Shown piece after piece: positions 11,198-23,302 of a stretch of 48,931 bases of DNA. Positions within the stretch are counted from its first letter, which is position 1. The number at the start of each line of letters is the position of its first letter. This DNA comes from Candidatus Desulfaltia sp. (GTDB lineage: Bacteria; Desulfobacterota; Desulfobacteria; Desulfobacterales; ETH-SRB1): positions 1 to 48,931 of the forward strand of contig JAUSPN010000078.1 in assembly GCA_030656555.1 (NCBI GenBank), written 5' to 3'. The notes beneath the pieces were generated by a model that saw nothing but the letters and a program-made list of their open reading frames with translations, searched no databases and was not told where the DNA came from. Made by a program: the position numbers and the translations under genes.

Positions 11198-12454
11198 ATG
11201 CAATTTATCGCTGATTTTCATGTCCATTCTAAATTTTCAAGAGCTACTGCCAAAAATCTTGATCTTGAAAACCTCTATATCGCAGCTCAATTAAAAGGGA
11301 TTACAGTTGTCGGAACAGGTGATTTTACACATCCCGGCTGGTTTGCGGAAATAAAGGAAAAATTAGAGCCGGCAGAGGAAGGGCTTTTTAAATTAAAAAG
11401 GGAAATTGCCGGGGAATGCGATAAAAAGGTCCCGTTATCCTGCCGCGGCAAGGTTCGTTTTATTCTGGTTTCTGAAATCAGCAATATCTATAAAAAAAAC
11501 AATAAAACCCGTAAAAACCACAACCTTGTATTTGTGCCTGATCTAAATATTGCCGATAAGTTTAATTCAAAGTTAGATAAGATCGGAAATATTAAGTCTG
11601 ATGGAAGGCCTATACTTGGGCTTGATGCAAGAAATCTTCTTGAAATACTGCTTGAGACATCAGGTACATCTTTTTTGATTCCTGCCCATATATGGACGCC
11701 ATGGTTTTCTGTTCTTGGTTCAAAGTCCGGATTTAATTCTATCCGGGAATGCTTCGAGGATCTTACCCCTCATATATTTGCCGCTGAAACAGGCCTTTCA
11801 TCTGATCCGCCGATGAACTGGCGTGTGTCCAGCCTTGATAACCTTACCCTTGTATCAAATTCAGATGCCCACTCTCCGTTAAAACTCGGTCGGGAGGCAA
11901 ATCTTTTCAACACCAGGCTTTCATATTCCGCAATAAGAGAGGCAATGAAGACAGGCGATCCTAATCATTTCCTGGGCACCTTTGAATTTTATCCTGAAGA
12001 GGGAAAATATTATCTGGACGGACACCGCAAATGCTCTGTTTGTTTTTGGCCCCAAAAAACCTTAAAAAACAAAGGGATATGTCCGGTTTGCGGGAAACCT
12101 TTGACTGCCGGAGTATTATACCGTGTTGAAGAGCTGGCGGATCGGCCAAAGCATGAAAAACCGAAAAGAGCTCACCCTTATTACAGCATGGTTCCTCTGG
12201 TCAATATTTTATCAGAAATATTAAAGGTCGGCCCAGGGTCAAAAAAGGTCATGAATAATTACAATGCAGCACTTGATATTCTTGGCCCGGAATTAAGTAT
12301 ACTTCACAACCTGGAACCAGAGGCCATTGATAAGGCCGGCATTCCGCTGCTTGGCGAGGCTGTAAAAAGGATGCGCAGGAAAGAAATTGATATTTCCCCC
12401 GGATATGATGGTGAGTTCGGCCGCGTGAAGATATTTAAAGATTTTTCCCTTTAG
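11198..12454 (+). CDS. Endonuclease Q-like PHP-domain protein
   Basis: 418 residues from the ATG at 11198; an earlier GTG at 11132 would overlap glgP. MQFIADFHVHSKFSRATAKN with GTGDFTHPGWF is the PHP metal-binding start typical of EndoQ proteins, which cut 5' of deaminated bases in archaea and some bacteria. Further metal ligands appear in PAHIWTPWFS and SNSDAHSP. A zinc knuckle CSVCFWPQKTLKNKGICPVC sits near residue 275, and a helical C-terminus follows. No strong ribosome binding site, so translation may be coupled to glgP. The family is often annotated UvrD/PcrA-associated; no helicase gene is next to it here. Confidence 0.82.
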   Translation: MQFIADFHVHSKFSRATAKNLDLENLYIAAQLKGITVVGTGDFTHPGWFAEIKEKLEPAEEGLFKLKREIAGECDKKVPLSCRGKVRFILVSEISNIYKKNNKTRKNHNLVFVPDLNIADKFNSKLDKIGNIKSDGRPILGLDARNLLEILLETSGTSFLIPAHIWTPWFSVLGSKSGFNSIRECFEDLTPHIFAAETGLSSDPPMNWRVSSLDNLTLVSNSDAHSPLKLGREANLFNTRLSYSAIREAMKTGDPNHFLGTFEFYPEEGKYYLDGHRKCSVCFWPQKTLKNKGICPVCGKPLTAGVLYRVEELADRPKHEKPKRAHPYYSMVPLVNILSEILKVGPGSKKVMNNYNAALDILGPELSILHNLEPEAIDKAGIPLLGEAVKRMRRKEIDISPGYDGEFGRVKIFKDFSL

Positions 12455-12580
12455 CATAGTATGGAAATTGCAACCCGATTTTGACCCTCTATTAATTTGA
12501 ACAACAATCATGAACTCTGTGGGAATAGTCAGAAACTATATAATAAATGATTATGTTATTAAAAATGATAGAGAAAAAGA

Positions 12581-12922
12581 ATGATTAACAGATCCGCCGT
12601 TATTTTAAAATGTAAAGAACCATTTGTACGATGGATTAACGAGGCTGATCCTTATGAAGATGATCCTGGGATAACGGCAGAAAACGCTAATGAGGATCGA
12701 ACAGTATATTTAATAACAGTTGATGATGCTGAAAACATTGAGAAATGGATATCATTAAATTTCAAAACACTCTTTGAAAATGAATTAGAGGATTGGTATA
12801 CCGACAAGTCGCTTTGGCCCAAAAAGAGACATAGAAAAATATTCAATGAATGGTTTGAGGTTGAATGTCACACTATAATAATAGATACCGTCGAAGATAC
12901 AATTGAAGATGATGAAACATAA
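12581..12922 (+). CDS. Conserved-looking hypothetical protein, acidic
   Basis: 113 residues, ATG preceded by a purine-rich AGAGAAAAAG. Mixed alpha/beta composition with many Asp, Glu and Trp residues, ending in an acidic tail (VEDTIEDDET). No signal peptide, membrane segment or known motif. The coherent start, stop and amino-acid use argue that it is a real gene. Stands alone between endonuclease Q and the palindromic element. Function unknown. Confidence 0.6.
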   Translation: MINRSAVILKCKEPFVRWINEADPYEDDPGITAENANEDRTVYLITVDDAENIEKWISLNFKTLFENELEDWYTDKSLWPKKRHRKIFNEWFEVECHTIIIDTVEDTIEDDET

Positions 12923-12974
12923 CATTTAACTAAACTCGACGGGCTATAAATCGGTACAGGCTACCTATCTAAGC

Positions 12975-13021
12975 CCTGCCTGTGCGTATCCGCATGCAGA
13001 CAGGTGCAACGCACAGGCAGG
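12975..13021. repeat. REP-like long palindrome
   Basis: CCTGCCTGTGCGT (12975-12987) pairs perfectly with 13009-13021. The 21-nt interior itself contains a GCATGC palindrome and a further partial copy of the arm (CAGACAGG). It is GC-rich against the AT-rich surroundings. The rest of 12923-13202 has no gene. The form is that of REP or small non-autonomous palindromic elements mobilised by RAYT proteins; a RAYT gene lies 6.5 kb away, but its own flanking repeats have a different sequence. Confidence 0.6.
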
Positions 13022-13202
13022 TCGCTAAATCGGTAATCCGAGGCGAGAAGCTGGCAACGGCTGAGAAATATTCGCTAACCGGCAAATAAGTTGATAAGTT
13101 GAGTCCCTTAAGCCCGTGATCTTGGCTTATAATCCTTTTATGGTAATATAAAATATTAGATACAAAATCATGACCCAAGGCTTCTAATATGAGGTAAGGC
13201 TG

Positions 13203-13427
13203 ATGAAACAATTCAAAATTATCGTGGGAAAACATTCCGACACCTATGTTGCTTACCCCCTCGGAATTAAAGGAGTGGTAGTTGGCCAAGGCGATACCTA
13301 TGAAACTGCCGTGGCCGACGTCAAATCTGCAATTAAATTTCACCTCGAAACATTTGGGCCTCAAGACCTGGAAATTGATCCTCCTATTTTGGAGGCATTT
13401 GTCGCAGAAACGGGAATCGCTGTTTGA
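13203..13427 (+). CDS. hicB: HicB-family antitoxin
   Basis: 74 residues with the HicB RNase-H-like fold: MKQFKIIVGKHSDTYVAYP, then GVVVGQGDTYETAVADVKSAIKFHLE. HicB neutralises the HicA mRNA interferase and usually represses the operon. GAGGTAAGG precedes the ATG. The stop overlaps the next ATG (TGATG), the normal hicBA coupling, but the toxin gene that follows is cut short, so this antitoxin seems to be an orphan. It lies directly before the restriction cassette. Confidence 0.8.
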   Translation: MKQFKIIVGKHSDTYVAYPLGIKGVVVGQGDTYETAVADVKSAIKFHLETFGPQDLEIDPPILEAFVAETGIAV

Positions 13428-13525
13428 TGGCAAAACTTCCTGTAGATGCGCCGATTCGCAAAGTAATCAAGGACGCCGGAAGTCTTCCCAAATGTGCTTC
13501 AGCTCAAATGCAGCTTAAATCATAG
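13427..13525 (+). pseudogene. hicA: Truncated HicA toxin
   Basis: The frame starts with the family-typical MAKLPVDAPIRKVIK, then runs into unrelated residues and stops after 32 codons; intact HicA proteins have about 60-85. The double-stranded RNA-binding-like region with the catalytic His is missing. It overlaps the hicB stop by one base. Probably an inactivated toxin. Confidence 0.7.
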
Positions 13526-13934
13526 ATAAAAAGGACCTAAGGGGTTCACTGCTTTTGATTCTTGCAGAGTAAAATACTACTGATTATGACATAGCACGTC
13601 CCCCCCCCCTCAGAATAGAGTTTCAAAACACATAGTATCATGTGATGAATCGTAGTAGACGCTTTAAATCACAGGAAGTTAATGGTATCAAAGCTTGACA
13701 CCAATTTTGACATTCTGCAAACCATCCCCCCTTTTTTTTGTGCACAAGTGAACCGTTTACGATCTGCCGCCCATCGACAGGCTGGAAGGCTTTAATCCAT
13801 CCGGAAGGACATGTATCAGCTGGTGCTGGTAGCTGTGAGATCAAACCACCAGATCCTACCGGTCTGGCTTACAATTACGAGGTCGTCTATAGTGCGCTAA
13901 GGGTCGTCTCCAGGTTTTGGGAAGGATAGTTTTG
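13526..13934. other. Intergenic stretch with homopolymer tracts, no gene recognised
   Basis: Contains a run of ten C at 13600-13609 and a C6-T8 tract at 13725-13738. Short open frames on both strands over 13638-13929 show no recognisable family. It separates the hicB/hicA remnant from the promoter of the restriction cassette. Confidence 0.5.
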
Positions 13935-14007
13935 CAGAAATAACATTTTTGCATTTTAGCTATTGACAAACAGTTCTACAATTCGTATATTATACAGAAA
14001 TAACATT
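13935..14007 (+). repeat. 13-bp direct repeat bracketing the cassette promoter
   Basis: CAGAAATAACATT occurs at 13935-13947 and again at 13995-14007, exactly 60 bp apart; both copies are followed three bases later by GCAT. One copy is 15 bp upstream of the -35 box, the other covers the expected transcription start. This is the arrangement of a pair of operator sites. Confidence 0.65.
13963..13991 (+). promoter_or_regulatory. Sigma-70 promoter of the type I restriction cassette
   Basis: TTGACA at 13963-13968 is a perfect -35 box; 17 bp later TATATT (13986-13991) serves as -10. Transcription would start near 13998, about 33 nt before the first gene. Confidence 0.75.
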
Positions 14008-14030
14008 ACAGCATAATATAAGGTGTGTTT

Positions 14031-14609
14031 GTGAAATTAAAAATAAAACAATTGGCGACAGTGCAGACGGGGTATTCATTTCGGTCTCGCCTCGAAGCCT
14101 CAAAGGATGGAGAGGTCGCTGTTATCCAGATGAAAGATTTACTTCAGGATAATACTGTAGGTTGCAAGAAGCTGGTCAAGATTGAGCTGGAAACAGTTAA
14201 AGAACATCATCTGGCTCAAAAAGGTGATCTGGTGTTCAGGTCGAGAGGTCAGATTACAACCGCTGCTATTCTTCTTGAGACTCCAGGCAAGGCTGTTGTT
14301 GCAGCACCTCTGCTCAGGATCAGAATTACAAAGCCTGATAAAATCCTGCCGGAATACCTTAATTGGTATATCAGCCAAAGGGATGCCCAAATATTTCTGG
14401 CAAGTAGAGCCAAGGGGACGCTGCAGAAAATGATCAGCAAGCAGACTGTCGAGGATATGGAGGTTTACTTGCCAACCCTGGAAAAACAACAACATATCGT
14501 GGATCTGGCAAATTTATCCGCACGGGAACGCGCGATTCTGGGCATGCTGGCAGAGAAAAGAGAACAATACATTTCAACACTACTAATGCAATTGGCAAAA
14601 GGGGAATAA
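14031..14609 (+). CDS. Half-length HsdS-like specificity subunit (single TRD)
   Basis: About 192 residues, with one target recognition domain (IKQLATVQTGYSFRSRLEAS ... AVIQMKDL) and one conserved helix (LPTLEKQQHIVDLANLSARERAILGMLAEKRE), i.e. half of a normal HsdS. GTG at 14031 is preferred over GTG at 14025 because AAGG lies 7 nt before it. It opens the restriction cassette, 5 bp before hsdM. A full-length hsdS with two domains follows three genes later, so the half subunit is extra. Half-HsdS proteins can pair to mimic a whole subunit; whether this one sets an alternative specificity or has a regulatory role is unknown. No helix-turn-helix is visible. Confidence 0.75.
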   Translation: MKLKIKQLATVQTGYSFRSRLEASKDGEVAVIQMKDLLQDNTVGCKKLVKIELETVKEHHLAQKGDLVFRSRGQITTAAILLETPGKAVVAAPLLRIRITKPDKILPEYLNWYISQRDAQIFLASRAKGTLQKMISKQTVEDMEVYLPTLEKQQHIVDLANLSARERAILGMLAEKREQYISTLLMQLAKGE

Positions 14610-14614
14610 AAAAC

Positions 14615-16183
14615 ATGAGTAGTCAAATTGATCAAAAAGATATCAACAACGCAGCATGGGCTGCATGCGACACCTTCCGAGGAGTGGTTGATCCTGCTCA
14701 GTACAAGGACTACATCCTTGTGATGTTGTTTTTAAAATATATTTCGGATGTATGGCAGGATCACTATATAGATTATCAAAAACAGTGTGGTGGTGATGAT
14801 GTCAGAATTCGCCGAAAAATGGAACGCGAACGTTTTGTCCTCCCTGTAATCAAATTAACTGAAAAAGATGAGAAGACAGGGCAGAAAACTGTACTGGACG
14901 AGTTCCCTGCCACCTATTACAGCCTTTACGAACGCAGAGCCGCGGCCAATATCGGGGAACTTATCAATATTGTTCTCGACCACATTGAAGAATCTAACAA
15001 AAGCAAGCTTGAAGGCGTTTTCCGTAATATTGATTTCAACAGCGAAGCGAATCTTGGAAAAACCAAAGACAGAAACAGACGGCTGAAGCAACTTCTTGAA
15101 GATTTTCACAAGCCGCAGATGGACATGAGGCCAAGCCGAGTTTCAGAGGATGTTATTGGTAACACCTATATCTATCTGATTGAACGCTTTGCTTCCGACT
15201 CCGGAAAGAAGGCCGGAGAGTTTTTTACCCCGCTCAAAGTAACTGAACTTGTCGCCAGGCTTGCCGGACCAAAACCGGGTGATCGCATCTGTGACCCTGC
15301 CTGCGGATCGGGAGGTCTTTTGATTCAGGCAGCCAGAGAGGTTGGCGACCGGAATTTTGCCCTTTTCGGACAGGAATCTAACGGCAGCACATGGGCATTA
15401 TGCCGCATGAACATGTTTTTGCACAGCTTTGACAGTGCCCGTGTCGAATGGTGCGACACTCTCAACAGTCCTCTTCTGGTTGAAAATGACCGCCTGATGA
15501 AATTCAACTGCGTAGTAGCCAATCCACCATTCTCGCTTGATAAGTGGGGAGCAGAAAATGCGGAAAGCGATCAGTACAATAGGTTCTGGCGCGGAATTCC
15601 TCCAAAAAGTAAAGGGGACTGGGCATTTATCAGCCACATGGTGGAGACTGCTCTGGAAAAACAGGGTCGTGTTGCTGTTGTTGTTCCCCATGGGGTTCTT
15701 TTCCGGGGAGCTGCTGAAGGCCGGATTCGCCAAAAAATGATAGAGGAAAATCTTCTTGATGCAGTTATCGGACTTCCGGGGAATCTGTTTCCCACTACCA
15801 ATATACCGGTTGCCATTCTGGTTTTTGATCGGAGCCGTGAGAAAGACGGACCGAATGAAGCGTGTAAAGATGTCCTTTTTTTAGATGCCAGCCGGGAATA
15901 TGTATCCAGTAAAAACCATAACACTCTCTCGGAAGAACATCTAACTAAAATCATGGCGACCTACAAGTCACGTGAAGAAGTGGAAAAGTATGCCCATGCA
16001 GCCGGGTTCGATGAAATCAAGGAAAACGACTTTAACCTCAATATTCCCCGTTATGTGGATACGTTTGAAGAGGAAGCGGAGATCGATATCGATGCCGTCC
16101 AGATAGAGATAGACGAACTGGAAAAAGAGCTGACAGAAGTTCGGGTTAAGATGGCCAAAAAGCTTAAGGAGATCCGGCGATGA
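14615..16183 (+). CDS. hsdM: Type I restriction-modification methyltransferase subunit
   Basis: 522 residues. N6-adenine methyltransferase: the AdoMet-binding motif I is DPACGSGGLLIQA (from residue 227) and the catalytic motif IV is NPPF at 303-306. The N-terminal HsdM helical domain (DTFRGVVDPAQYKDYILVMLFLKYISD) and the C-terminal coiled coil (EIDIDAVQIEIDELEKELTE) that contacts HsdS are present. AAGGGG precedes the ATG. The stop overlaps the dinD start (ATGA). Works with HsdS to methylate the host recognition site and with HsdR to cut foreign DNA. Confidence 0.95.
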   Translation: MSSQIDQKDINNAAWAACDTFRGVVDPAQYKDYILVMLFLKYISDVWQDHYIDYQKQCGGDDVRIRRKMERERFVLPVIKLTEKDEKTGQKTVLDEFPATYYSLYERRAAANIGELINIVLDHIEESNKSKLEGVFRNIDFNSEANLGKTKDRNRRLKQLLEDFHKPQMDMRPSRVSEDVIGNTYIYLIERFASDSGKKAGEFFTPLKVTELVARLAGPKPGDRICDPACGSGGLLIQAAREVGDRNFALFGQESNGSTWALCRMNMFLHSFDSARVEWCDTLNSPLLVENDRLMKFNCVVANPPFSLDKWGAENAESDQYNRFWRGIPPKSKGDWAFISHMVETALEKQGRVAVVVPHGVLFRGAAEGRIRQKMIEENLLDAVIGLPGNLFPTTNIPVAILVFDRSREKDGPNEACKDVLFLDASREYVSSKNHNTLSEEHLTKIMATYKSREEVEKYAHAAGFDEIKENDFNLNIPRYVDTFEEEAEIDIDAVQIEIDELEKELTEVRVKMAKKLKEIRR

Positions 16184-17067
16184 ACGGAAAAGATATGGAA
16201 AAGAAACACTATCAGACTTTTGACAGCATAAAGGAAACCGGGCCTGATGGAGCAGAGTTCTGGATGGCGCGCCAGTTGTCCAAGATCTTGGACTATGCAG
16301 AGTTTCGGAATTTTCTTCCAGTTATTGAAAAAGCTAAGAAAGCCTGTGAAAACAGTGGCCAACAGATAAAAAACCATTTCGTGGAGATGCACGAGATGGT
16401 CTCAATCGGTTCTGGCGCTGAGCGGAAAATGGAGTCCTACGCCCTTTCCCGCTATGCCTGTTACCTGATTGTTCAGAATGGTGACCCGTCAAAACCGGTT
16501 ATCGCCAACGGGCAGACTTATTTTGCCATTCAAACTCGCAGGCAGGAATTGGCTGACGACGAAGCTTTCCAGCGGCTCAAGGAAGAAGAAAAACGCCTGT
16601 TTCTGCGCAACGAGATGCGGGAGCACAACAAACAACTTGTGGAGACAGCCCAGCAGGCCGGTGTGAAATCCAATCTGGACTTCGCCATCTTCCAGAACCA
16701 CGGATACAAAGGTCTTTATGGCGGACTGAACGCGAAGGCGATTCATCAGCGAAAAAAACTGAAAAAAAGCCAGCAGATTCTTGACAATATGGGCAGTACC
16801 GAACTTGCCGCCAATCTGTTCCGTGCCACGCAGACGGAAGAAAAACTTCGCAGGGAAAATATTACGAGAAAAACCAAAGCCAACAAAACTCATTTTGAAG
16901 TGGGCAAAAAGGTGCGCCAGACCATTGAGGAACTGGGCGGCACCATGCCTGAAGACCTCTCCACTCCAGAAGAAGATCTGAAAAAGCTCGAACGGCGGGT
17001 GAAGTCTGCTGAAAAGAAGCTAATCAAAAATAGTGAATTGCCAAACAAGCTGGAGAATGGGGAATGA
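16180..17067 (+). CDS. dinD: DinD-like DNA-damage-inducible protein
   Basis: 295 residues; the N-terminus (HYQTFDSIKETGPDGAEFWMARQLSKILDYAEFRNFLPVIEKAK) is the BRO-N/DinD type DNA-binding domain, and the middle YALSRYACYLIVQNGDPSKPVIANGQTYFAIQTR is characteristic of DinD. The charged C-terminus looks coiled. In E. coli DinD is SOS-induced and inhibits RecA filaments. Here it is embedded between hsdM and hsdS with 4-base overlaps on both sides, a recurrent position for the family, which suggests a role tied to restriction (for example limiting RecA repair of cut DNA); that link is inference. A second ATG at 16195 is possible. Confidence 0.85.
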   Translation: MNGKDMEKKHYQTFDSIKETGPDGAEFWMARQLSKILDYAEFRNFLPVIEKAKKACENSGQQIKNHFVEMHEMVSIGSGAERKMESYALSRYACYLIVQNGDPSKPVIANGQTYFAIQTRRQELADDEAFQRLKEEEKRLFLRNEMREHNKQLVETAQQAGVKSNLDFAIFQNHGYKGLYGGLNAKAIHQRKKLKKSQQILDNMGSTELAANLFRATQTEEKLRRENITRKTKANKTHFEVGKKVRQTIEELGGTMPEDLSTPEEDLKKLERRVKSAEKKLIKNSELPNKLENGE

Positions 17068-18266
17068 ACAACACTTACCAATTAAAACCAATAAGTGAGA
17101 TTGCGAAGGTCATAACAAGCCCGGTTGATAAAAAATCTCTCCACGATGAACTGCCAGTGTTTTTATGCAATTACACAGATGTGTATTATAATTCTGTTAT
17201 CTCAAAGGACATGGATTTTATGGGGGCAACTGCTAAGCAGAGCGAAATTGACAGGTTTTCATTGAAGCCAGAAGATGTTGTTATAACAAAAGATTCTGAA
17301 AGCGCTGATGATATTGGTATATCCACATATATCGAAAGCGTCAAAGATAATTTGCTTTGCGGCTATCACCTTACAATTCTAAGACCAAAAAAGAATATTG
17401 ATGGAAGATTCCTGTCATACGCATTAGGACATCCAAGAATTGGATATGATTTTTATCGCTATGCAAATGGCATTACAAGATTTGGTTTAACTGCAGAAAC
17501 ATACAAAAAAGTCAAAATCCTTCTCCCCCCACTTCCCGAGCAAAAAGCCATTGCCGATCTGCTTTCCACCTGGGATGAGGCCATAGAGAAAACCGAACGG
17601 CTGATTCAGGCAAAGAAAAAGCAGTTTCAACGTTTTCTGCATGATTTAATCTATATACCAAGTGTGAATGGAAAATGGAAAGAGGTTAGAACTAAATCCC
17701 TTTTTAAGGAACGTAGAGAAACAAGAAGGGACGATTTACCACTATTGTCAATTACTAATGGTGAAGGGGTTATTCATAGGGACGATACAAATCGTAAAGA
17801 CACATCTAATAATGATAAATCTAAGTACCTGCGGATTTGTCCCGCGGATATCGGCTATAACACAATGAGAATGTGGCAGGGAGTCTCTGCTCTTTCAGCG
17901 TTGGAAGGGATAGTTAGTCCAGCTTACACAATATGTATTCCGGGAGAAAAACTCTTCCCTCAGTTTGCGGCTTATTTGTTTAAAATACCATTCATGATTC
18001 ACCGCTTTTATCGCTACTCACAAGGGTTAACATCGGATACATGGAATCTGAAATATACTAATTTCTGCGAAGTGAAAATGCCGTTCCCACCACTGCCAGA
18101 ACAAAAACAAATAGCTGAAACATTATCCACCGCGCAACAGGAAATCGGCCTGCTCAAGCAGTTGACTGAAAAATACAAAGCCCAAAAACGCGGTTTGATG
18201 CAGAAACTGCTCACGGGTAACTGGCGAATCAAACCTGAAATCCTGAACAAATATAAGGAGGCGTAA
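17064..18266 (+). CDS. hsdS: Type I restriction specificity subunit, two TRDs
   Basis: 400 residues. Each half has a target recognition domain followed by a conserved helix: PPLPEQKAIADLLSTWDEAI (about residue 155) and PPLPEQKQIAETLSTAQQEI (about residue 345). The TRDs share little sequence, so the recognised site is probably asymmetric and bipartite. Start overlaps the dinD stop, with GGAG/GGGG just before. The complete specificity subunit of the cassette. Confidence 0.93.
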   Translation: MNNTYQLKPISEIAKVITSPVDKKSLHDELPVFLCNYTDVYYNSVISKDMDFMGATAKQSEIDRFSLKPEDVVITKDSESADDIGISTYIESVKDNLLCGYHLTILRPKKNIDGRFLSYALGHPRIGYDFYRYANGITRFGLTAETYKKVKILLPPLPEQKAIADLLSTWDEAIEKTERLIQAKKKQFQRFLHDLIYIPSVNGKWKEVRTKSLFKERRETRRDDLPLLSITNGEGVIHRDDTNRKDTSNNDKSKYLRICPADIGYNTMRMWQGVSALSALEGIVSPAYTICIPGEKLFPQFAAYLFKIPFMIHRFYRYSQGLTSDTWNLKYTNFCEVKMPFPPLPEQKQIAETLSTAQQEIGLLKQLTEKYKAQKRGLMQKLLTGNWRIKPEILNKYKEA

Positions 18267-18268
18267 TT

Positions 18269-18502
18269 ATGGCAAAAGGTAAAAATCAACATGTCGTAAA
18301 ACATCCTGAGGGATGGGCTGTTAAAGGAGCCGGCAACAGTAAAGCAACCAAAGTGACCAGAACACAGGTGGATGCGATTGAGATTGCTCAGAATATTGCC
18401 ATAAATCAGCAGTCGGATACCAAAATTCATGGTCGGGATGGAAAAATCCGAGCTGGCAACAGCTACGGAAACGATCCATGCCCTCCAAAGGATAAAAAGT
18501 GA
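18269..18502 (+). CDS. DUF2188 small protein
   Basis: 77 residues, start preceded by an ideal AAGGAGG. The sequence is a full DUF2188 domain: KGKNQHVVKHPEGWAVKGAGNS, then HGRDGKIRAGNSYGNDPCPP. The family is small, basic and often found beside restriction or other mobile genes; its function is not established. Sits 2 bp after hsdS and 13 bp before hsdR, within the same transcript. Confidence 0.85.
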   Translation: MAKGKNQHVVKHPEGWAVKGAGNSKATKVTRTQVDAIEIAQNIAINQQSDTKIHGRDGKIRAGNSYGNDPCPPKDKK

Positions 18503-18515
18503 GGATTGTGTGAAT

Positions 18516-21500
18516 ATGACCAACTTTGAAACCAACGAAAAACACCTTTCGCAGATACCGGCTTTGCATCTGTTGATAAACCTTGGATTTGAATACATCA
18601 CACCTGCTGAGGCCCTTTATGAGCGTCAGGAAAGAACTTCAAATGTACTTCTGGAAAACATTCTGCGTTCACAACTAAAAGAGATCAACCGTATCAGATA
18701 CAAGGCTAATGAGTATCTTTTCAGTGAAGAAAATGTGCAGTCAGCTATCCAGAAGCTTAAAAATATCAAGTATGATGGGCTGCTGAAAACAAATGAGGCG
18801 GTGTATGACCTTTTGACGCTGGGAACTGCATTAGAACAGACCATTGAGGGTAATTCCAAGAGCTTTAACCTTAATTATATTGACTGGCGCAATCCGCAGC
18901 GAAACCGTTTTCATGTAACCGTTGAGTATAGTGTTGAACGATCAAGAAGCACGGAAACAGTCCGTCCGGATATTGTATTGTTTGTTAATGGTATCCCCTT
19001 TTGTGTTATTGAGTGTAAAGCTCCTCAGATTGAAGTTGAACAGGCTGTTTCGCAATCCATAAGAAATCAGAATGATGATTTTATCCCAAAACTGTTTATT
19101 TATACGCAACTGGTACTCGCCGTTAATAAGAACAGCGCCATGTATGCGACTACTGGAAGTGCCGCAAAATTCTGGGGTATCTGGAAAGAACCTCAGATGG
19201 AAGCAGGAGATCGGAAATTTGGGAAGTTGCAGGAATTTGTCAATAAACCTTTAGGAAATCATACTCTTACAAGAATAGCTGATACTCTGAATGCAAATCC
19301 CGTTTTCTTAAAAACGGGTCGCCTTGTTACTGAGCAGGACAAATCTATTTATTCTTTGTGTCGCCCGGACAGGCTGTTGGAATTGGCATGGAACTTTACT
19401 GTGTTTGACGGTGGAATCAAAAAAATAGCCCGTTATCAGCAGTATTTTGTTATCAAATCAACTCTTAATCGTGTGAAACACTTTGATAGCAATGGTTCAC
19501 GCAAGGGTGGCATTATATGGCACACACAAGGTTCCGGCAAATCCCTGACAATGGTCATGTTGACAAGGAATCTTGCTCTGGACACTGAGATCATGAATCC
19601 TCGCATTGTTCTGGTAACAGACAGAGATGATCTGGATAAGCAGCTTGGCAACACCTTTGCTGCATGTGGCCTTGAAGCCAATCGAGCCAGCTCAGGGCGA
19701 AACCTCTTAGAATTGGTCGCTGAAAAACAATCCGGAATTATTACCACACTGATTCATAAATTTGACAAGGCGTTTGCTGTAAAGAAATATCAGGATAAAT
19801 CCCCTGACATTTTTATTCTGGTGGATGAGAGCCATCGTACTCAGTTTGGATCATTCTCAGCCCGAATGAGACAAATGTTCCCTAATGCGTGTTATTTGGG
19901 ATTTACAGGAACCCCTTTGCTAAAAAAGGAAAAAAATAGCTTTGCTAAATTTGGTGAATTGGTTGAGCCCCATTATTCTATTACACAGGCTGTTGAAGAC
20001 GGCGCGGTAGTTCCTCTTCTTTATGAAGGGCGTCATGTTGAAATGACCCAGAACAAGAAAGCAGTTGATTTGTGGTTTGAACGCCTTACCCAAGGGCTTA
20101 CAAAAGAGCAGCAAGCTGACCTGAAAAGAAAATATGCTCGGGCAGAAATGCTGAATAAAGCCGATCAGGTTATCTATATGAGAGCCTTTGATATCAGTGA
20201 ACATTATCGTTCCAACTGGCAGGGAACCGGTTTCAAAGCTCAACTTGTAACCCCAGGTAAAGCTGCAGCACTGAGATATAACTCATATTTAAATGAGATA
20301 GGCATTGTATCTTCAGAAGTTGTTATTTCTCCGCCGGATATGCGGGAAGGCTACGACGAGACCGATGATGAAACAACTGATGAAGTTGTGAAATTCTGGC
20401 AAAAAATGATGAAACGCTATGGAAATGAGGAAGAATACACCAAGCAACTTATCAATCAGTTTAAACATGGCAGCGAACCGGAAATATTGATTGTGGTAGA
20501 CAAGCTTCTAACCGGATTTGATGTCCCCAGAAATACAGTGCTGTACTTGTGCAGGATTTTAAGGGAGCATACTTTGCTGCAAGCTATTGCACGGGTTAAC
20601 CGGCTTTATGAAGGAAAGGAATTTGGTTTTATTGTTGATTATGTAAGTGTCCTGGGAGAGCTGGATAAGGCCCTGACCATGTACAGCGCGTTTGAGGGAT
20701 TTGATGAATCAGATCTTGTCGGAACCATTGCTTCGATAAAGAGTGAAATAGATAAACTGCCTCAACGCTATTCAGACCTGTGGGATGTTTTTAAATCAGT
20801 CAAATATTCTTATGATGAAGAGGCTTATGAGGTCCTTCTTGCGGATGATGAACTTCGAGAAGAATTTTACGGGCGTCTGTCAGAATACAGCAAAACTCTT
20901 GCAATTGCTTTTTCATCAGACCGTTTTTTGTTTGAAACTGATGATAAAACGTTATTCAGATATAAAGCTGATTTGCGCAAATTTCAGTTACTGAAGGCTT
21001 CCGTAAAACTTCGCTATGCTGAAGCCATTGATTATAGGGATTACGAACCGAGGATCAAAAAGCTTTTAGATACGCACATTCAGGCGAATGAAGTAATACA
21101 GCTTAACGAGCCTGTTAATATTTTCGATGATAATATGTTTAATCAGGTTAAGGAGGATCAAGGGGTTTACCAGACAAAAAAACCCACTGCTTCAAAAGCT
21201 GATACTATTGCACATGCCACCAAAAAAGTAATTACAGAAAAAATGGGTGAAGATCCGGCATTTTATGAAAAATTCTCAAAGCTCATCCAGCAGGCAATCG
21301 AAGATTTCAGGGCAAAAAGAATATCAGATTTAGACTATCTTGGAAAAGTTGTAGATATCCGAAATAAGGTTGTTGGGAAAGTTCATGACGATGTTCCTGA
21401 AAAACTTACTGGAAATGAAGATGCTATGGCATACTATGGCATATTAAAACCATTTTTCGAAAAGCATGACTTGAATGAATCTGATCTTGAAAGCATTGCT

Positions 21501-21716
21501 GCTGATACAGCAATTGCTATCCACAGTATTCTGGAATCTCATCAAAAGGTACATTTTTGGTATGATGAAGATGCGCAGAAGCAAACCGTTAATGAAATAG
21601 ATGATTATTTATATGATGAGTTGAAAGTCGGAAAAAATATTGAACTGTCACTGGATCAAATGGATGATATGATAGAAAAGGCGCTGCAAGTAGCAAAACG
21701 CAGGAGCTACAAATGA
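18516..21716 (+). CDS. hsdR: Type I restriction endonuclease subunit R
   Basis: 1066 residues from the ATG at 18516 (GAGGA upstream). The open frame reaches back to 18429, but that would overlap the DUF2188 gene. PD-(D/E)xK nuclease: RPDIVLF...VIECKAP with D152, E166 and K168. SF2 translocase: Walker A QGSGKSLTM (K342), Walker B VDESH (437-440), motif III GFTGTPL, motif VI LLQAIARVNR. The C-terminal helical domain binds the methylase core. Ends with a 4-base overlap with the peptidase gene. All catalytic residues are intact, so restriction should be active. Confidence 0.95.
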   Translation: MTNFETNEKHLSQIPALHLLINLGFEYITPAEALYERQERTSNVLLENILRSQLKEINRIRYKANEYLFSEENVQSAIQKLKNIKYDGLLKTNEAVYDLLTLGTALEQTIEGNSKSFNLNYIDWRNPQRNRFHVTVEYSVERSRSTETVRPDIVLFVNGIPFCVIECKAPQIEVEQAVSQSIRNQNDDFIPKLFIYTQLVLAVNKNSAMYATTGSAAKFWGIWKEPQMEAGDRKFGKLQEFVNKPLGNHTLTRIADTLNANPVFLKTGRLVTEQDKSIYSLCRPDRLLELAWNFTVFDGGIKKIARYQQYFVIKSTLNRVKHFDSNGSRKGGIIWHTQGSGKSLTMVMLTRNLALDTEIMNPRIVLVTDRDDLDKQLGNTFAACGLEANRASSGRNLLELVAEKQSGIITTLIHKFDKAFAVKKYQDKSPDIFILVDESHRTQFGSFSARMRQMFPNACYLGFTGTPLLKKEKNSFAKFGELVEPHYSITQAVEDGAVVPLLYEGRHVEMTQNKKAVDLWFERLTQGLTKEQQADLKRKYARAEMLNKADQVIYMRAFDISEHYRSNWQGTGFKAQLVTPGKAAALRYNSYLNEIGIVSSEVVISPPDMREGYDETDDETTDEVVKFWQKMMKRYGNEEEYTKQLINQFKHGSEPEILIVVDKLLTGFDVPRNTVLYLCRILREHTLLQAIARVNRLYEGKEFGFIVDYVSVLGELDKALTMYSAFEGFDESDLVGTIASIKSEIDKLPQRYSDLWDVFKSVKYSYDEEAYEVLLADDELREEFYGRLSEYSKTLAIAFSSDRFLFETDDKTLFRYKADLRKFQLLKASVKLRYAEAIDYRDYEPRIKKLLDTHIQANEVIQLNEPVNIFDDNMFNQVKEDQGVYQTKKPTASKADTIAHATKKVITEKMGEDPAFYEKFSKLIQQAIEDFRAKRISDLDYLGKVVDIRNKVVGKVHDDVPEKLTGNEDAMAYYGILKPFFEKHDLNESDLESIAADTAIAIHSILESHQKVHFWYDEDAQKQTVNEIDDYLYDELKVGKNIELSLDQMDDMIEKALQVAKRRSYK

Positions 21717-22438
21717 TTGAGACAACGAGTATTGATAAACGGTCTTTTTTTTACGGCCAAAAGACCATCGCCTACAGCCTCTTTTTTACAGACAGAAGAT
21801 CTTTGGAGATTGCTGTTCATCCGGATAGTACTGTAGTTGTCAAAGCTCCGCTGGATTCAGATATTTCTTTGATTGAAAAGAAATTACATAAAAGAGCGCG
21901 GTGGATATTCCGACAGCTAAATTATTTCCGGCAGTTTAACCCCAAAACTCCGGCTCGACGATACATAAATGGTGAAACGCATTTATACCTTGGAAGGCAA
22001 TATCGGTTGAAAATTTTACATGACCAGGAAAATAGCGTTAAGTTGATTAAAGGTTTCTTTCGGGTTGCTTGTAGAGAAGAACATGATCAAGGGATTGTAA
22101 AAAAGCTTATGAATAACTGGTACTTACAGAAAGCAAACATTCAATTCAACGAAAGTCTGACTCGCTGTTGTCCGAAGTTTAATGCTTTTGATCTCACCAA
22201 ACCTTCAATCTCGATCAAGCGTATGAAAAAGAGATGGGGAAGCTTATCGGATAAAGGCACGGTTACCCTTAATACTGCTCTGATTAAAGCACCGAAAGAA
22301 TGTATCGATTATGTCGTTACCCATGAGCTTTGTCATTTAAAATATCATGACCATAGCTCTGAGTTCTACAAGCTACTTGATTCCGTAATCCCAGGGTGGA
22401 AAAAAATAAAGCACAAACTCGAACTGAGTATGGTTTAA
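21713..22438 (+). CDS. M48/YgjP-type zinc metallopeptidase
   Basis: 241 residues. Zinc site HELCH at 204-208 in VVTHELCHLKYHDHSSEFYKLL, the YgjP/DUF45 signature; the third ligand is presumably in the following helix. The upstream half has the typical RWGSLSDKGTVTLNTALIKAP. No transmembrane segments, so it is a cytoplasmic relative of M48. Such genes frequently end type I restriction operons, and this one overlaps hsdR by 4 bp. HsdR turnover (as ClpXP does in E. coli) is an attractive but unproven role. The 200 bp that follow (22439-22639) contain nothing recognised. Confidence 0.88.
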   Translation: MIETTSIDKRSFFYGQKTIAYSLFFTDRRSLEIAVHPDSTVVVKAPLDSDISLIEKKLHKRARWIFRQLNYFRQFNPKTPARRYINGETHLYLGRQYRLKILHDQENSVKLIKGFFRVACREEHDQGIVKKLMNNWYLQKANIQFNESLTRCCPKFNAFDLTKPSISIKRMKKRWGSLSDKGTVTLNTALIKAPKECIDYVVTHELCHLKYHDHSSEFYKLLDSVIPGWKKIKHKLELSMV

Positions 22439-22639
22439 AAGTGGGACTTACGCGGGGACCTACTGTACATAGCTCAGTTTATAAGTTTATATCGTCAAGA
22501 AATGAACCGCAATAGCAAGCGAATCTTCAATATTGATTTTCTTTTGGAATTTTCTTCTTGTCTTTACACAAACTCCGAAAGAAACAGGTGGGGTGATACC
22601 TGCGTGGCCTGCACGGAAGGGAAGCGAACTATTTTTAGG

Positions 22640-22981
22640 TTAAATATTGTGTAAAATTATTATGCCTGTAAAAAGGAAGATCGGAACACCCACTAATGCT
22701 ATGTACTGCACATTTTTTTTAAATATACTTGTCATTAACTGAGCTAAGCAGAAACCAATAATAAGTACTATAAATGGGCTCCACCACTGAAACAGGTAAG
22801 CAGAAGCGAGTGCTGAACCTGGTAAAGAAATAAAGCTGGCAATTTTTATCAGAGAAGTATTTTTTTCATACCATTTGCTAATATGCCAGTTTTTAAGTTT
22901 AGCATAATGATCATAGGAAAGCACGACCCACGAAAAACTGGCGAGCAGAGTAAAAATACTGATTACAGTATAAGGATTCAT
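22640..22981 (-). CDS. Small integral membrane protein, unknown
   Basis: 113 residues from the ATG at 22981 (a GTG at 22993 would add four; GAAAGG lies upstream). Three or four hydrophobic helices alternate with charged loops (TLLASFSWVVLSY; FISLPGSALASAYLFQW; FIVLIIGFCLAQL; IALVGVPIFLFTGIIIL). No known motif. Alone between the restriction cassette and the methyl-cycle genes, on the opposite strand to the cassette. Confidence 0.6.
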   Translation of the reverse strand: MNPYTVISIFTLLASFSWVVLSYDHYAKLKNWHISKWYEKNTSLIKIASFISLPGSALASAYLFQWWSPFIVLIIGFCLAQLMTSIFKKNVQYIALVGVPIFLFTGIIILHNI

Positions 22982-23026
22982 GTTATGCGACACCTTTCTT
23001 TATTAAGAAATTTGAACCCGGGTTGA

Positions 23027-23167
23027 CTATATCCCTGATCGCCCGAAGTAATCTACCAGTATGCCGGGGTTATTGCTTCCAATACCATCAACACCAATAT
23101 CCATTGCCTTTTTAATAGATAACAGAGTATTTTCCGGCTCAATAGCCGCAGCCCCGCGATGTCCCAT
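23027..23167 (-). pseudogene. Internally deleted glycerophosphodiester phosphodiesterase
   Basis: A 46-codon frame joins the exact N-terminus of a GDPD enzyme (MGHRGAAAIEPENTLLSIKK, AMDIGVDGI) to what looks like its C-terminus (GSNNPGILVDYFGRSGI). About 200 residues, including the catalytic metal site, are missing. The join is at GVDGI, a motif that occurs both early and late in this family, so the loss may reflect recombination between the two coding copies. The rest of 22982-23326 has no gene. Confidence 0.7.
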
Positions 23168-23302
23168 TAATTATTTTTATAATTCTACCATAAAAAACAG
23201 CTTAAACGCAAATATCTCAATCCTGCCGAGAAGCATATTAGCAGTTAGGGAAACTTTCGGGCAACAGTTGGGGACGGGGGATATAAGGGACACGCGGTCG
23301 AA

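Follow-up and report, generated by a model that had tools for sequence, protein, structure and literature searches.

The window analysed here, a stretch of 48,931 nucleotides from Candidatus Desulfaltia sp. (contig JAUSPN010000078.1), carries on its plus strand a type I restriction-modification cassette whose seven genes were all found intact between 14025 or 14031 and 22438 (Table 1). Besides hsdM, hsdS and hsdR, the cassette holds a half-sized specificity gene at its front, here called S1, two guest genes, encoding DinD and a DUF2188 protein, and a metallopeptidase gene at its end. S1 is the main subject of what follows: on sequence comparison we consider it probable, at roughly three chances in four, that S1 regulates its own operon through palindromes at the promoter rather than choosing targets for restriction.

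A first, sequence-only reading of the locus had described seven tightly packed genes with an extra specificity gene of a single target recognition domain (TRD) in front, and coordinates and family models bear out both points. With S1 ending at 14609, hsdM begins at 14615; the DUF2188 gene follows hsdS after 2 nt, and the pairs hsdM/dinD, dinD/hsdS and hsdR/peptidase overlap by 4 nt each. The listed start of hsdR, 18429, falls inside the DUF2188 gene, and inspection of the translation makes a start near 18516, past that gene, more likely. In the Pfam and NCBIfam scans, S1 has a single Methylase_S match (41 bits) and HsdS is matched by the same family in two stretches; HsdM has the N6_Mtase and HsdM_N domains and scores 298 bits against a cut-off of 243 with TIGR00497, which we take to be the model for EcoR124I-like (type IC) HsdM. 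HsdR matches TIGR00348 (475 bits, cut-off 285), DinD, putatively active on RecA filaments, matches NF008573 (490 bits, cut-off 242), and the DUF2188 protein matches PF09954 (73 bits); the last gene, called M48 in the first reading, belongs to the YgjP-like family PF01863 (193 bits). The catalytic motifs are intact in HsdM (DPACGSG, NPPF), HsdR (ECK, GSGKS, DESH, TGTP) and the peptidase (HELCH). An operon that combines HsdM, a two-TRD HsdS and an HsdR with motifs of both nuclease and translocase qualifies as a type I restriction-modification system. No Rfam match was found in 12400–23300.

The promoter region, 13930–14014, lies outside the coordinates of the first reading. Its sigma-70-like element, TTGACA-N17-TATATT, is the best of 15 matches in 13400–22700; as 17.9 promoter-like sites are expected by chance in shuffles, it is the score and the place that matter, not the count. 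Two 25-nt stretches, 80% identical and 60 bp apart, flank this promoter just upstream of S1 and head the first direct-repeat family (D1) listed for 13880–22450; the third copy of D1, at 21784 and 72% identical, looks unrelated.

Table 1. The promoter region and the seven genes of the cassette, in window coordinates
Feature	Position	Strand	Remarks
Candidate operator 1, GCAGAAATAACATTTTTGC	13934..13952	+	CAGAA N7 TTTTG; 10 bp before the -35 box
Sigma-70-like promoter, TTGACA-N17-TATATT	13963..13991	+	Consensus match only, 11/12 positions
Candidate operator 2, ACAGAAATAACATTACAGC	13994..14012	+	CAGAA N7 TACAG; covers the expected transcription start
S1, half-HsdS	14025..14609	+	One TRD and one long C-terminal helix; GTG start at 14025 or 14031
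hsdM, N6-adenine methyltransferase	14615..16183	+	TIGR00497
dinD, guest in the hsdM-hsdS slot	16180..17067	+	PADLOC PDC-S13
hsdS, full specificity subunit, two TRDs	17064..18266	+	Family models
DUF2188 protein, 77 aa, guest gene	18269..18502	+	PADLOC PDC-S16
hsdR, restriction/translocase subunit	18429..21716	+	Likely true start near 18516
YgjP-like (PF01863) metallopeptidase	21713..22438	+	HELCH active site

S1 and its relatives

Related loci were collected with an alignment of seven related HsdMs, searched against one genome per species, and the sample consists of the best 80 of at least 588 pattern matches, 575 of them confirmed; the loci were annotated with profiles built from the window's own genes and run on six-frame open reading frames (ORFs). 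S1 adjoins hsdM in 68 of the 76 loci that have at least 900 bp of upstream DNA, and one of the four with less (L144) also has it there; in one locus, L093, S1 lies 3.3 kb from hsdM, and seven loci are without S1. A further 40 loci were taken from the window's phylum by HsdM similarity and counted by reading of the profile results: S1 is present in all ten with a closely grouped HsdM and stands beside hsdM in none of the 27 in which HsdM is less similar and the upstream DNA extends for 900 bp or more.

S1 is a conserved lineage, separate from the TRDs of the full-length subunits. The best match of each S1 is another S1 (70/70), and among 208 recognition units, the other 138 being TRD units of full HsdS, the 70 S1s form one clade with a support of 0.989; the top-scoring match between an S1 and a TRD is only 29% identical. 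Across 46 complete loci, median identities are 25% for S1, 23% for TRDs, 37% for the peptidase, 44% for HsdR and 58% for HsdM, and the rank correlation with HsdM divergence is 0.48 for S1 versus 0.27 and 0.34 for the TRDs. In the 21 pairs of loci with HsdMs 80–95% identical, S1 is 51% identical and the two TRDs 29% and 27%; between loci with HsdMs 50–60% identical, TRDs reach identities of up to 61–62%, indicating exchange, and S1 at most 35%, indicating none.

These results bear on the claim of the first reading that specificity switching is built into the system. In many type I systems, hsdS duplicates allow a switch of specificity through recombination (PMC7394358), and S1 might supply a reserve TRD which, by recombining or pairing with the full HsdS, would alter the specificity. 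We regard this as highly improbable: S1s and TRDs fall into separate clades, no long repeats joining S1 to hsdS were found in the window, and the recombination repeats that hsdS copies share in phase-variable type I systems were not seen. On the separate clades and the absence of long shared repeats in the window, the reading of S1 as a switching cassette was rejected.

The AlphaFold2 model of S1 (mean pLDDT 97.2) shows one TRD and then a single 40-residue helix, residues 150–189 of the 192-aa form, which is the architecture of a half-HsdS, and S1 retains the HsdS-type conserved region; its open frame is kept in loci of many phyla. The best Foldseek match in the PDB is Esub1 (8vsq, and 8vsr with Prx), followed by HsdS and related subunits. 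Like S1, Esub1 consists of one chain, and the two are comparable in length (8vsr_B: E 1.3e-13, TM 0.72, 17% identity); with the S1 profile, however, it scores only 65 bits, below several full HsdS. A literature search found no paper on Esub1.

Interrupted palindromes upstream of S1

The DNA upstream of S1 was compared across 79 regions: 69 from survey loci, the window and ten extra ones, less one duplicate (L039). Early scans were weak, direct repeats reaching p<0.05 in 12 of 70 regions and a pair score the smallest p in 13 of 70, and the signal became plain once spacing was tested. Perfect palindromes in 70 S1 regions are in excess mainly at odd spacings of 1–9 and more weakly at 14, and among the 64 triplets at spacers of 3–11, GTA-N7-TAC ranks first; its inner A and T emerged freely and were built into the patterns used later. 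The motif has 44 sites in 29 of the 79 regions (1.9 sites and 1.8 regions expected) and occurs twice or more in 15 (0.04 expected), the paired sites lying 55–77 bp apart in 14 of these 15; with spacers of 4, 6 and 8, the same triplets give 2, 5 and 5 sites, about 2 being expected. Its density is 3.71 per kb upstream of S1 versus 0.129 in the rest of the loci, it occurs in 5 of 152 intergenic control regions of the same contigs (Fisher 4e-11), and it was found in none of the 29 regions upstream of less similar hsdM genes.

In L093, which lies outside the motif-count set, the displaced S1 is preceded by two CAGTA N7 TACTG sites, 58 bp apart, and the surroundings of hsdM gave no GTA-N7-TAC. Two perfect sites and a good sigma-70 promoter are present in L136, from Hyphomicrobium sp. 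PB1.3.35. L078 has CAGAA N7 TTCTG, containing GAA N7 TTC, and L089 and L091 have sites resembling CAGTA N8 TACTG. Versions of the palindrome with an N8- or N6-like spacer were seen in these last two and in L112, L114 and L121. Such variants could tie the spacing to the S1 helix; no link between N8 spacing and helix length was visible by eye.

Fresh loci were sought with an alignment of 66 S1s (A2), and the best 30 matches per scan were held out. The first scan covered 345 genomes of the phylum of the Flavobacterium locus L122, 39 of them with matches, some to full HsdS; it gave 29 loci and, with L178 and L184 too short and L187 redundant, 26 regions. The second covered 349 genomes of the phylum of the Acidovorax locus L147, 15 of them with matches, and gave 13 regions. 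GTA-N7-TAC occurs in 8 of the 26 regions of the first scan (0.58 expected), and for all held-out regions together the count is 8 of 39 (0.85 expected; maximum of 6 in 200 shuffles).

The half-site changes with the S1 group. The window's 13-mer is found at three or fewer mismatches in all ten held-out loci whose S1 shares 60% identity or more with the S1 of the window or of L074, three of them carrying it twice (0.108 expected per locus), and at four or fewer mismatches nine of the ten have it two or more times (0.565 expected). Elsewhere it is seen in 2 of 16 other held-out regions, in 10 of 76 other survey regions and in one of L074 and L078. A second form, GCATCA N7 TGATGC, is limited to four survey loci, all of one S1 group, and the nearest S1 of 12 of the 13 second-scan regions falls in that group. 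The pattern CAYYA N7 TRRTG occurs in 9 of these 13, three of them having it twice, and in none at spacers of 4–6 and 8–10; since it was drawn after the second-scan sequences had been read, its controls are the other spacers and shuffles and not a fresh sample. Any of the three forms at N7 is found in 61 of 118 regions (3.5 expected); for every other spacer between 3 and 11, the number of regions is 3–8.

EcoR124I's half-HsdS recognises GAA N7 TTC, with 7 nt between the methylated adenines, and that of EcoDXXI keeps 8 nt (PMC3874165). The sites upstream of S1 are probably read by S1 itself: GTA-N7-TAC shares the 7-nt adenine spacing of the EcoR124I half-HsdS, and the A-N7-T inner edge is the same in both. 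The operators might instead belong to another regulator, encoded by the host or borne by a phage, S1 being just the first gene downstream. The presence of a motif does not prove its reader, and 57 of the 118 regions are without one; even so, this account is very unlikely, given that the motif is missing upstream of the less similar hsdM genes, goes with S1 and not with hsdM in L093, shifts its half-site with the S1 group and has the published spacing of a half-HsdS.

S1 could also be an alternative specificity subunit, a homodimer that with HsdM would methylate, and with HsdR restrict, a second palindromic motif genome-wide. Half-HsdS dimers, both engineered (PMC6158711) and natural, as in NgoAV (PMC3874165), are active methyltransferases, and the adenines in the sites stand at a workable distance. 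We nevertheless think it unlikely: the sites cluster at a single promoter, S1 shows none of the exchange seen in TRDs, the core motif is not depleted in the loci, and the target would probably be rare if full half-sites of 5–6 bp count.

Core genes, guest genes and surroundings

Among the related loci, the peptidase follows hsdR in 50 of the 52 that have at least 700 bp past hsdR, and HExxH is retained in 52 of 52 peptidase sequences. DinD lies between hsdM and hsdR in seven of the 80, once as a fragment, and DUF2188 is present in seven of the 80. S1 and the peptidase are core parts, and DinD and DUF2188 are guests in variable slots; the core order, S1-M-[slot]-S-[slot]-R-peptidase, defines a distinct and widespread, IC-like subfamily of type I systems. 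The sequence-only reading had taken all seven genes for a unit. Of this, the recurrence of the half-HsdS (68/76) and of the peptidase (50/52) stands, and the place of DinD and DUF2188 (7/80 each) does not: by the refuting test that the reading had itself named, absence from related cassettes, both are missing from most of those examined. As a core part, DinD was ruled out on the same count. Turnover of HsdR by the peptidase, also suggested there, is a fair guess from sequence.

The peptidase is spread more widely than S1, being kept in loci with a long HsdM and no S1. Nine loci have a long HsdM of 809–938 aa; the peptidase is retained in seven, the remaining two stop short of hsdR, and one of the nine, L157, has only 415 bp upstream. 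In L158–L162 and L164 (HsdM of about 810–940 aa), the peptidase is kept and S1 was not seen beside hsdM; in the similar L157, Pfam gives no match to the portion of HsdM that lies past the methylase domain. As a speculation, the extra part of the long HsdM may take over the role that S1 has elsewhere. Tandem hsdM pairs were seen in the type I loci L047, L048, L049 and L154.

The slots are often long, with gaps of more than 250 bp between hsdM and hsdS in 46 of 75 loci and between hsdS and hsdR in 47 of 65. Slot ORFs of at least 70 aa form 123 clusters, some surely spurious; 13 of 19 scanned slot proteins have a Pfam match and six have none. The families include RhuM with Fic, Fic, Schlafen AlbA, PD-(D/E)XK, DUF3800 (twice), HAD, DUF6119, Piwi, KilA-N, SMODS/DncV-like, KAP NTPase and DUF4917. 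Nested inside type I operons are a Piwi-domain protein (L114, 15160–16959) and a CD-NTase-like protein (L131, 11526–12752). In six of its seven loci (L076, L080, L081, L082, L096, L126) DUF2188 lies between S1 and hsdM, unlike its hsdS–hsdR position in the window.

An E. coli relative of DinD, 69% identical, lies near gmk, rpoZ and spoT, outside any type I operon, and among 18 other DinD genomes, as seen with these profiles in fetched stretches on contigs of which some are short, DinD is beside hsdS in three (L047, L052, L061). A Neisseria gonorrhoeae record (L032) has the order hsdM-dinD-split hsdS-hsdR; dinD presumably occurs in NgoAV-type loci, on which a literature search turned up no paper. 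Both guests match PADLOC profiles, DinD PDC-S13 (E 1e-122) and DUF2188 PDC-S16 (E 8e-36), which PADLOC has as separate candidates and not as parts of an operon. DinD also matches the first 280 of the 717 positions of the 'Specificity_I' profile PDLC03083, which suggests that DinD–HsdS fusions exist.

With varied genes in its slots, several of defence families, the cassette might be no more than a type I system of the usual kind placed in a defence hot spot, with S1 as a decaying copy of hsdS; the hsdS–hsdR site has been called a potential recombination hotspot (PMC12255303), and the guest-gene view does hold for DinD and DUF2188. For S1 itself, however, decay is scarcely credible: the open frame is conserved across many phyla, and the model has a complete TRD fold with a mean pLDDT of 97.

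More hsdS pieces were seen in the same genome on a short contig (contig 7, 163–1012; L004 and L005), and the genome may hold a second type I system. Upstream of the cassette, an intergenic run of about ten Cs lies at about 13600–13610, and 13203–13520 encodes a small protein that we take to resemble a HicB antitoxin, and, after it, a short ORF with a HicA-like beginning that ends after about 32 codons; the HicB-like protein has no Pfam match, and the two are possibly a broken toxin-antitoxin pair.

Probable autoregulation by S1 and its closest parallels

As we picture it, a homodimer of S1, probably carrying HsdM, would bind interrupted palindromes made up of a half-site ending in A, seven bases and the mirrored half-site; the palindromes, often paired, sit around the operon's own promoter, and S1 bound to both would limit transcription. 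HsdM is given a part because S1 keeps the HsdS-type conserved region, and repression is favoured over activation because of the position of the sites. The operon of the window, like some of those in related loci, does encode this candidate regulator and has repeated palindromes that flank or overlap the promoter. The guests in the slots, here DinD and DUF2188, would come under the same control as the whole operon, and the peptidase would probably remove HsdR engaged on self DNA, the place held by ClpXP for EcoKI (PMC4231737, PMC12255303).

Several observations weigh against autoregulation by S1. The sites in the window are imperfect (CAGAA N7 TTTTG and CAGAA N7 TACAG) and neither is GTA-N7-TAC, the exact form of which is missing from 50 of the 79 survey regions. 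Neither it nor exact GCATCA N7 TGATGC occurs in any of the 13 second-scan regions, and the 57 regions of 118 without a motif lack all three N7 forms, two of which were shaped after inspection of the data; a few of the motif-less regions look like N6 or N8 variants and the rest are unexplained. Near hsdM, a single GTA-N7-TAC was seen in each of two (L097, L115) of the 11 loci without an adjacent S1, close to the expectation under even base use, the intergenic controls also show some excess of palindromes, and no depletion of GTA-N7-TAC was found within the loci (71 versus 51–90 at other spacers). Among the 138 TRD units there is one whose best match is an S1. Finally, the engineered half-HsdS of CC398-1 reads ACC N5 GGT, with adenines 9 and not 8 bp apart (PMC6158711), and the spacing is thus not fixed in all half-HsdS enzymes.

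Autoregulation may extend to sensing, a possibility that we think doubtful. S1–HsdM would be repressor and sensor in one, methylating and occupying its own operators so that the promoter reports free methyltransferase. DNA-mimic anti-restriction proteins such as Ocr and ArdA would pull S1–HsdM off the operators and so induce the restriction genes along with the guest defence genes; in this way the operon would sound an alarm at anti-restriction and bring in an exchangeable second line of defence. When the operon enters a new host, this loop would restrain HsdR until methyltransferase is plentiful.

Little is known of how type I systems are regulated at the promoter. Should S1 act as proposed, the recognition domain of a restriction enzyme has been turned into a transcription factor whose operators can be read from sequence in several phyla; such a regulator family, with half-sites that can be matched to TRD sequence, would offer a way into the TRD code. 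It would also explain why a group of type I operons starts with a 'spare' half-HsdS and suggest, in a form open to testing, how defence genes inside such an operon stay quiet.

The first reading held that such a cassette had not been described as a unit, and this needs to be divided. The RRDM island of enteropathogenic E. coli, with the order RptR-HsdM-HsdS-DarTG2-HsdR-M48 peptidase, is a published type I operon that carries guests in its hsdS–hsdR interval and ends in an M48 peptidase (PMC12255303); in the open-licence literature searched, neither a form led by a half-HsdS nor a half-HsdS regulator nor the S1-led core order was found, and no C-protein-like role of a half-HsdS was found there either. 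RptR is the first-gene repressor of its type I operon, a 79-aa four-helix protein with palindromic sites, reading a 6-bp palindrome. The island shares with the cassette a small gene for a DNA-binding regulator in first place (putatively so for S1), guests between hsdS and hsdR, an M48 peptidase in last place and palindromic repeats at the promoter; it differs in that the first gene is RptR there and a half-HsdS here, where the sites are interrupted palindromes of type I geometry. Autoregulation by S1 would parallel that by RptR in some type I systems and by the C proteins of type II systems, which are likewise encoded with their restriction system but are helix-turn-helix proteins (PMC12255303); S1 has the fold of a type I recognition domain and so may act like a C protein or RptR without being a member of either family.

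Further close parallels are the half-HsdS forms of EcoR124I (HsdS(delta 50)), EcoDXXI (truncations), NgoAV and CC398-1, which like S1 have one TRD and one dimerising helix, and whose targets are interrupted palindromes. They replace the full HsdS, whereas here a full HsdS is encoded as well, and S1 differs from them in being a separate lineage with candidate sites at its own promoter. Half-HsdS dimers have been likened in target and structure to transcription factors such as BmrR (PMC6158711), and by this analogy the present operon looks like a natural case of a half-HsdS acting as one.

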